Assembly (NCBI GenBank): GCA_013820875.1 | Contig: JACDHS010000043.1 | Coordinates: 1-36,397, forward strand | Length of the DNA: 36,397 nt | Origin: Verrucomicrobiota bacterium | Lineage (GTDB): Bacteria; Verrucomicrobiota; Verrucomicrobiia; Limisphaerales; JACDHS01 | Direction: 5' to 3' | Notes under the pieces: generated by a model | Seen by the model: only the letters and a program-made list of their open reading frames with translations | Told to the model about the DNA's origin: nothing | Databases searched by the model: none | In this document: piece after piece, positions 25,966 to 28,289 of the stretch | Numbering within the stretch: position 1 is the stretch's first letter | Layout of the letters: each line of letters begins with the position of its first letter | Program-made: the position numbers and the translations under genes

Positions 25966-26513
25966 ATGCTTGATTGCTACCAACTTCCCTGCGGAAGTCT
26001 TCGAGCGTCTCAATAAAAGGCAGTCCAGCCCAAAAAGTCCACACTAATCGTTTCCCCTACCATTTTTTTGACATGAATGCCTGAAGAATGCACAGAGGCG
26101 GTCTCGGAAGTAAGGACTGTCCTGAGCGGTTTGCAGGGCGGTGTCATCGACCCGGTGGACAATAACTGTTTTTAGACCTTTTAGTCATCCATTCAACCGA
26201 ATCATGCCCTGTTTACGCTGACTTCACCTCGCTTTTGAAAGCTATGTCCTGCTAGCTGGGAGAGGCTCTTTTAAAGTGGGTTTCGGATGCAACGACCCAG
26301 CGTCGGGAACTTTATGATCACTTTGAAATGCCTGATTCGAAGCTGCCGAGCGCCTGCGCGATGTTCTAATTTGGGACAATTATAACGGTTCTCAAAAATC
26401 ATTTCCGGATCCGTTGTGATTGGAAGCTTTGTTAAGCTCGCCCTGATACGAATCCTTGGTTCCCACCACGCAAAGTGGTTTAGTGAATAATTTGTTCTCG
26501 TTTTCTCCCCCGC
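25966..26513. other. Gene-free stretch upstream of the MBG/Ig gene
   Basis: No convincing gene is present. A 38-codon open segment ending at TAA 26370 (LLKWVSDATTQRRELYDHF ...) looks protein-like but lacks a start and is cut upstream by a stop; it may be a decayed gene remnant. The promoter of the MBG/Ig gene should lie in the first part of this region. Confidence 0.35.
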
Positions 26514-26704
26514 CGGAACGATTCAGTTGAATGCGTGTTGAAACACGAGTTTCACACCAGTGCGGATGCACGGAACGCCGCATTTATGCGGCAGCAGACT
26601 CCCGAACCCCAAAACGGTGCCCAGAACTGGCGCTTTCGGGACAGATTCACGTTCCTGCCGGATGAATCCGGCGTTCCGGTGCAATTTCAACTGAATCGTT
26701 CCGG
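26514..26704. repeat. 191-bp element with perfect 19-bp terminal inverted repeats
   Basis: CCGGAACGATTCAGTTGAA (26514-26532) is the exact reverse complement of 26686-26704. The interior holds small perfect hairpins: CGTGTT-GA-AACACG (26534-26547), GCCGCAT-TT-ATGCGGC (26577-26592) and GCCGGAT-GA-ATCCGGC (26657-26672). A 70-codon frame crosses it but has no ribosome site. The form is that of a non-autonomous mobile element (MITE-like), although no target duplication was found. Confidence 0.7.
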
Positions 26705-26805
26705 ATTAACGTGGAAAAAGGGTGAAATCCGAGTCAAAAGGTCGTAAGTCATTTCGCTGTAGGGAGTTCCAGCATGGAGTGGGTTAAAAAAAGGCGCGAT
26801 GGAGG

Positions 26806-27092
26806 TCCTCCAAACTATTTTGGAGCACTAAAATCGGCAATTTCAGTCCTCCAAACTATTCTGGAGCGCTAAAATCGGCAATTTTAGTCCTCCAAACTAT
26901 TTTGGAGCGTTAAAATCGGCAATTTTAGTCCTCCAAACTATTTTGGAGCGTTAAAATCGGCAATTTTAGTCCTCCAAACTATTTTGGAGCGCTAAAATCG
27001 GCAATTTTAGTCCTCCAAACTATTCTGGAGCGCTAAAATCGGCAATTTCAGTCTTCCAAAACATTTTCGAGACCCAAAATTGCTGTCGGAGC
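26806..27092. repeat. Tandem array of 41-bp dual-hairpin units
   Basis: Six near-identical 41-bp units start at 26806, 26847, 26888, 26929, 26970 and 27011; a degenerate seventh begins at 27052. Each unit contains two separate hairpins: CTCCAAA-CTAT-TTTGGAG and, two bases later, CTAAAAT-CGGCA-ATTTTAG. Unit 5 is perfect in both. Units 2 and 6 carry one change in the first stem, units 1 and 6 one change in the second, and units 3 and 4 a C-to-T change in the second. There are no variable spacers and no cas genes. It lies 225 bp before kdsD. Confidence 0.92.
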
Positions 27093-27317
27093 CGTCTAAT
27101 CTGCGCTAACAAGCCATCCATCTCCCGTTGATCTGTTCCTACTGTGCCGCTTTTCGTCGGCTGCAATAGGGATATCCGAAGACTGCCACGTCTTTCGCGC
27201 GAAGAAAAAGCGGTAGAGGACTACCTCAGTCCAAGACGCTGGCGCGAATTGATTACACCCAACCTCTTTTGAATTCGTTTTTGCCTTTAAGCCCTGTTTC
27301 CACTTAAGTTCCCGCCC

Positions 27318-28289
27318 ATGAGCCATCTCGCCCGAGCCCGTGAAGTGTTTGATTGTGAGTTACTGGCCTTGAAAGCTGTCCGCAAGCATCTCGATGCCTC
27401 CTTCGACCTGGGAGTGGAAATCGTCGTGGAAGCTTTGCGCCGACGCGGCAAAATCATTGTCGTTGGGATTGGCAAATCAGGTAACGTTGGCCAAAAAATT
27501 GCCGCCACTCTCACCAGCACCGGTTCCACCAGCGTCGTGTTGAGTCCGGTGGATGCGTTGCACGGCGATCTGGGAATCGTGAATGACGGCGATGTGATTC
27601 TCGCTCTCAGCTACTCCGGCGAATCGGAAGAACTCCTTAATTTAATTCCCGCGATCAAACGTTTCTCCGTCAAAATCATTGCGCTGACTGGCGGGACGAA
27701 ATCTTCTCTCGCGCGCTACAGCGATGTGGTCCTGAACGTGAAGGTGCCAAAGGAGGCCTGCCCTTTCAATCTCGCGCCAACTTCCAGCACCACCGCGACG
27801 CTCGTCATGGGGGATGCCCTCGCCATGGCGGTTCTACAGGCCCGTGGATTTAAACAAAGCGATTACGCCAAACGTCATCCGCATGGGGCGATAGGCCGCG
27901 CGCTCCTCATGAAAATGAGCGACATCATGCGCACCGCCGAACGCAACGCGGTGGCTTCGGAAAAGCTAAGCGTCAAGGAGGCGTTGCTGGTAATGACGCG
28001 AGCCAAGTCCGGCAGCGTCAGCGTGGTAAACGCCAAAGGAAAATTGGTGGGCGTTTTCACAGACGGCGATCTGCGCCGGCAAATGGCCGCTGACGACAAC
28101 GCCCTTTCCAAACCGCTTTCCGCTGTGATGACACGAAATCCCGTTTGTATTCGTGATGATGTTTTAGCAGCCGATGCGTTGAAGATTTTCAATGAACGGA
28201 ACATTGACGATTTAATTGTAGTCAATGCGAAGAACGAGCCAGTCGGCCTGGTGGATTCCCAGGATCTGCCAAAACTGAAATTGATGTAA
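27318..28289 (+). CDS. kdsD: Arabinose-5-phosphate isomerase (KdsD/KpsF family)
   Basis: The 323-aa enzyme converts ribulose-5-phosphate to arabinose-5-phosphate, the first step to Kdo for lipopolysaccharide. The SIS domain (about 30-180) shows VVGIGKSGNVGQKIAATL, STSVVLSPVDALHGDLG, ALSYSGESEELL and APTSSTTATLVMGDALA. The conserved RHPHGAIGR motif follows. Two CBS domains (about 205-320) complete the usual layout, and the length equals that of the E. coli enzyme. There is no signal peptide. No clear Shine-Dalgarno precedes ATG 27318. kdsA, kdsB or kdsC are not next to it. It fits the LptE/BamD evidence for an LPS-bearing outer membrane. Confidence 0.95.
   Translation: MSHLARAREVFDCELLALKAVRKHLDASFDLGVEIVVEALRRRGKIIVVGIGKSGNVGQKIAATLTSTGSTSVVLSPVDALHGDLGIVNDGDVILALSYSGESEELLNLIPAIKRFSVKIIALTGGTKSSLARYSDVVLNVKVPKEACPFNLAPTSSTTATLVMGDALAMAVLQARGFKQSDYAKRHPHGAIGRALLMKMSDIMRTAERNAVASEKLSVKEALLVMTRAKSGSVSVVNAKGKLVGVFTDGDLRRQMAADDNALSKPLSAVMTRNPVCIRDDVLAADALKIFNERNIDDLIVVNAKNEPVGLVDSQDLPKLKLM

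Follow-up and report, generated by a model that had tools for sequence, protein, structure and literature searches.

Intergenic tandem arrays in a family of Limisphaerales bacteria hold a 41–43-bp repeat length while their sequence turns over

The closest described counterparts of the repeats reported here are REP/BIME elements and bacterial minisatellites or VNTRs of the MIRU type. REP/BIME elements are abundant short palindromes that lie between genes, in clusters and sometimes in tandem; they share one sequence family per genome and carry a GTAG or CGTC tag. Minisatellites and VNTRs are tandem, variable in copy number, intergenic and contained in dispersed repeats, and ordinary bacterial VNTRs come in many different unit lengths within a genome. 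CRISPR arrays also combine tandem direct repeats with palindromic character, but separate them by unique spacers. Here, we analyze a stretch of 36,397 nucleotides, henceforth termed the window, from a draft genome of Limisphaerales (Verrucomicrobiota subdivision 3; assembly GCA_013820875.1, contig JACDHS010000043.1). The window holds a minisatellite in which short DNA palindromes alternate in 41-bp units and which forms a module inside a dispersed composite repeat with an IS630-type left end and REP-like palindromes in mid-element. It belongs to a large class of intergenic arrays in one bacterial family that keep a repeat length of 41–43 bp and whose sequence turns over freely.

Tandem repeat analysis (TRF) delimits the window array to positions 26805–27071, with a period of 41 bp, 6.5 copies, 94% matches, 0 indels and a score of 457 (Table 1). 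Together with a unit-by-unit reading, this agrees with a preliminary description of six units and a decayed seventh carrying two alternating hairpins. The palindromes H1 (CTCCAAA-CTAT-TTTGGAG) and H2 (CTAAAAT-CGGCA-ATTTTAG) follow each other at a centre spacing of exactly 20.5 bp. Both are present in each unit as described, but the stems are not perfect, as had been stated: A·C mismatches occur in H1 of units 2 and 6 and in H2 of units 1 and 6; units 3 and 4 have T·G as the outer pair of H2. The stem of the seventh H1 is broken by TTCGAG in place of the TTGGAG of other copies. Folding of the array exceeds chance by far on both strands (z of −6.9 for plus-strand RNA, −11.8 for minus-strand RNA and −5.8 for plus-strand DNA), and none of 200 shuffles folds as well. 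The contiguous units with 0 spacers bear out the earlier exclusion of a CRISPR array. Constant-length units arranged head to tail, numbering from 1 to 7 in paralogous copies with near-identical flanks, place the array among minisatellites and VNTRs. The other of the two TRF arrays in the window is a heptamer repeat (CCAGCAT, 11.3 copies) at 291–369.

Table 1. Features of the array, its carrier element and the downstream gene (positions in the window)
Feature	Position	Strand	Remarks
Copy of the dispersed composite repeat holding the array	26381..27114 (shared end 27112)	+	~732 bp
IS630-family terminal inverted repeat (TATAACGGTTCTCAAAAATCATTTCCGGA)	26381..26409	+	Marks the left boundary
Block bounded by an inverted repeat (CCGGAACGATTCAGTTGAA / TTCAACTGAATCGTTCCGG)	26513..26704	.	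Also occurs alone elsewhere in the genome
REP-like palindrome GGAACGCCGCATTTATGCGGCAG	26572..26594	+	Short exact matches recur in G008, a genome of the same order
REP-like palindrome, opposite orientation (CTGCCGGATGAATCCGGCGTTCC)	26655..26677	-	Short exact matches recur in G010, a genome of the same order
Leader	26723..26804	+	Common to diverged array subfamilies and to two loci with a single hairpin and no array
Six 41-bp units	26805..27050	.	H1, unit positions 4-21; H2, unit positions 24-42
Decayed seventh H1 (GTCTTCCAAAACATTTTCGAG)	27051..27071	.	
Array tail, inverted H2 fragment (CCCAAAATTGC)	27072..27092	-	
kdsD (SIS and CBS domains)	27318..28289	+	Downstream gene

The carrier element recurs in its own genome in about 20 further copies or fragments, in unrelated gene contexts; searches of this genome returned 30 matches to the array and 47 to its 1.2-kb neighbourhood. 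Eight copies share the left end at 26381 and at least ten the right end at 27112, with unrelated flanks beyond. Most other copies run 13 bp longer (..CTGTTTCAACAGC, then TA), an end that the window copy lacks, and one further copy (L085) ends in AACCGTTATA. The left-end terminal repeat has 26 exact pattern matches in the genome. In the relative G023, two facing copies of this repeat lie 1.14 kb apart (L174:2149-3288) around an intact 366-aa frame, whose DDE-type motifs suggest an IS630 transposase and an apparently intact element. The carrier resembles an IS630-family MITE in its left end, an IS630-type terminal repeat starting with TA, but a counterpart on the right is missing from the window copy, and the array module also occurs without the left end. 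At four other loci, diverged arrays (about 70–76% identity) keep H1, and the leader is present at most of them. Used as a DNA pattern, the 41-bp unit gave 0 matches in collections of genome contigs and viral contigs.

Other dispersed repeats neighbour the element. Directly downstream of the array, positions 27142–27253 belong to one that is 89% identical to G000:C98:20127-20238. Another sequence of about 150 bp occurs 18 times in the genome (L099–L116, e.g., G000:C20:38731-38903), five times directly next to the array element. At no fewer than 14 sites, the sequence closes with GTT and precedes a short reading frame that differs from site to site, in several cases with an attC-like sequence thereafter. 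Judged by these sequence features, the copies may represent many scattered attI-like sites with gene cassettes; no integron integrase reaching the family cut-off was found in this genome. We considered the array itself as an integron attC site or cassette and rejected this, as the abutting attI-like sequence is a separate repeat that is also found without the array. Three loci (L093, L094 and L095) contain truncated frames resembling the N-terminus of integron integrases, and a 41-bp array that belongs to another family follows each of them.

Arrays at other fetched loci likewise had a period of 41 bp in sequences unrelated to the window array, and we therefore sampled 0.8 Mb of the draft genome. 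Among tandem arrays with a period of at least 25 bp in this sample, which was partly chosen for copies of the window element, 39 of 42 have a period of 41, 42 or 43 bp, corresponding to 49 per Mb. The window family accounts for only 7 of the 37 own-genome arrays that entered the family analysis. An independent autocorrelation scan over lags 16–130 of the same genome returned only 41, 42 and 43 and their multiples. In G001, a genome of a different genus in the same family from which most contigs were picked regardless of content, 11 of 16 arrays fall into this range (41 per Mb). The density is 2.0 per Mb in other members of the order (0.51 Mb), for which the autocorrelation has a uniform background of 4 across all lags, attributed to runs of N, and 1.7 per Mb around kdsD of 80 named relatives (1.19 Mb). 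A few other order members carry short tandem repeats of 21 or 42 bp (L183:14483-14639, L216:9825-9920, L233:11893-12112 and L234:190-290), which may represent the same kind in half-unit form.

The 48 arrays of the two genera fall into 31 unrelated sequence families, 20 in the genome of the window and 11 in G001, and none of the 31 is common to both. The median array comprises 6.1 units, or about 250 bp. Arrays occur about once per 20 kb in the window's genome, and scaling 49 per Mb to 5.7 Mb would give nearly 300 per genome. They are intergenic, with one overlapping a called gene, and the orientation of neighbouring genes, called from simple hexamer-scored reading frames, is unbiased (9 ++, 8 --, 7 +- and 8 -+). 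A terminator or promoter role was discarded, there being no bias towards convergent or divergent neighbours.

Palindromes recur across the class. Over the 48 arrays, the best palindrome arms match at 6.54 of 8 positions compared with 5.26 ± 0.09 for permuted columns, about 14 standard deviations above chance. Arms are also less variable than the remainder of the unit (difference of −0.045 versus −0.001 ± 0.007; 39 of 48 arrays), a test made on consensus palindromes, so that conserved columns may still be somewhat favoured even with the permutation control. The families fold at a mean z of −2.3, and 21 of 31 lie below −1.64. Of 46 units, 28 lie nearer to their own reverse complement than shuffles do (p < 0.05), and about 40% of the arrays are without clear whole-unit symmetry. 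Inverted part-units, like the tail of the window array, occur at the edges of other families as well, in 20 of 93 flanks in total versus about 2.8 expected, and flipped units are found inside the arrays L131, L146 and L148. A+T content is periodic at 10.4 bp (z 4.6) and 13.8 bp (z 4.1). We did not adopt an interpretation as DNA curved by phased A-tracts; the 13.8-bp power is also raised, and GC-rich families exist. With a fixed period and palindromes recurring genome-wide, a neutral tandem repeat, the fallback offered in the preliminary description, is not the whole story.

Variation within the window family was read from 62 units. Frequent variation is confined to four sites, where every change is a transition, and since identical variants recur across many copies, they point to exchange between units. 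Three of the four polymorphic sites lie in stems, as anticipated for most changes. The further suggestion that several changes stay compatible with G-U pairing on one strand holds only by half: wobbles form on the minus strand at sites 16 and 40 and on the plus strand at site 24. Pair 9–16 is an A·C mismatch in 33 of 62 units and pair 26–40 in 36 of 62. No stem pair shows a compensatory change among the 62 units, and over the 48 arrays 16 compensatory double changes stand against 20.0 expected from permutation, i.e., no excess; wobbles are likewise unbiased by strand (87 versus 79). The proposed covariation check for a structured RNA is therefore negative, since compensatory stem changes are absent and wobble compatibility is divided between the strands.

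These observations bear on four readings of the arrays. According to one, the array would be transcribed and act as a structured RNA, be it a small RNA array, a sponge or an attenuator of kdsD. Tandem arrays encoding small RNAs exist, such as NsiR1 in Nostoc, and the very stable folding of the window array, stronger on the minus strand, would suit such a role. Against it stand the missing compensatory changes and strand bias, the unrelated genes adjoining the element copies, the relatives, in which no comparable array precedes kdsD, and an Rfam search of the whole window that yielded no match at gathering score. The attenuator before kdsD, raised earlier, was rejected on the distribution of copies and on the relatives: the element recurs, leader and array included, beside unrelated genes at about 20 other sites, and in the 1.19 Mb around kdsD of 80 relatives the only such repeats are two weak ones of 42 bp (about 2 copies each), neither of which precedes the gene. 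We judge kdsD, whose product is 82% identical to Verrucomicrobiales RYN_621, to be unrelated to the array. Because copies are spread, no such array precedes kdsD in the relatives, and covariation as well as strand and orientation bias are lacking, a gene-linked RNA or attenuator role is disfavoured, and a function as transcribed structured RNA appears highly improbable altogether. We instead favour, at a probability of roughly 0.47 and thus just short of even odds, a class of arrays that makes and maintains itself through hairpins at the DNA level. Hairpins would form at the palindromes when the DNA is single-stranded or negatively supercoiled, and whole two-hairpin units would be gained or lost by slippage between neighbouring ones. 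Template switching between arms would repair arm changes and sometimes copy a unit inverted, from which flipped units and, at array edges, inverted part-units would result; in quasi-palindromes, template switching that extends the identity between arms is reported as a known type of mutation (PMC3820800). Arrays would spread as their carrier dispersed repeats move or recombine, and the window copy would need no gene-specific regulatory role. Such a process would account for the palindromes, the conservation of arms in the absence of compensation, the variable copy number, the flipped units and the inverted edges. Arm repair would have to be inefficient in the window family, as arm sites 16 and 40 are mismatched in over half of the copies, and both the arrays lacking clear symmetry and the 10 of 31 families that fold no better than z −1.64 speak against the process.

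Slippage and template switching alone predict neither that 31 unrelated sequences have one length nor that the arrays are confined to a single bacterial family. The 41–43 bp correspond to about four helical turns, two per palindrome, a length for which the hairpin process itself does not account and which could follow from either a structure-specific platform or a length-ruler enzyme. Arm conservation, moreover, would also be expected under selection by a bound protein. As BIME-like platforms, the palindromes two helical turns apart would recruit a putative structure-specific or loosely specific DNA-binding protein, such as a nucleoid protein, gyrase or an SMC-like loader, and help organize the chromosome. 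REP/BIME elements offer a comparison as structure-specific platforms (PMC3733652, PMC2817692), and BIMEs are reported to bind several host proteins (PMC2817692). The conserved arms, the intergenic placement irrespective of gene orientation, the array density and the 10.4-bp A+T periodicity are in line with this; the 13.8-bp signal is nearly as strong, however, a period of 41–43 bp lets the helical phase drift by up to about 34 degrees per unit, and no sequence is common to the two genera. Since the 31 families are unrelated, a single sequence-specific docking protein is disfavoured; a docking array, as proposed earlier, may still be in line with the conserved arms. We regard the platform as rather unlikely. 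Similarly, we think it unlikely that the arrays, their sequence being incidental, are built by a dedicated enzyme that measures off about four helical turns; candidates would be a recombinase, a rolling-circle Rep acting on dumbbells of about 41 nt, or a reverse transcriptase. Such a ruler would explain one length in 31 families of two genera and its confinement to one bacterial family, and near-self-reverse-complementary units with two centres half a period apart are the remnants expected of a replicated dumbbell circle; the inverted array ends are likewise in its favour. Some families lack this symmetry, however, a non-systematic search found no candidate enzyme, and Y1 (RAYT) transposases are few, with five clear matches in the window's genome. 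More generally, we tentatively consider a family-specific, genome-wide class of palindromic arrays whose 41–43-bp length is set, independently of sequence, by dedicated machinery or a structural requirement. If true, length and symmetry would define what is in effect a sequence-free genomic element.

Compared with known systems, the arrays share with REP/BIME elements their intergenic, clustered and tandem palindromes, and the carrier element itself contains REP-like ones. They differ in forming 31 unrelated array families, in holding one fixed period and in lacking a tag in the window unit; GTAG or CGTC occurs somewhere in 15 of the 31 families versus 13.8 expected in shuffled units. In the literature searched, with subscription journals mostly outside the search, we found no report of a fixed-period array class. 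For Methylacidiphilum fumariolicum SolV, 54 short tandem repeats are on record, and the available part of the source describes them as low-GC and mentions no fixed length. With minisatellites and VNTRs the arrays have tandem organization, variable copy number, intergenic location and residence in dispersed repeats in common, whereas essentially all non-coding arrays here measure 41–43 bp and most of their units are palindromic. Dozens of unrelated non-coding arrays with one length would imply that some undescribed machine or physical rule gauges DNA in lengths of about four turns, or else that the arrays have a common role in chromosome organization, and either is directly testable in these genomes.
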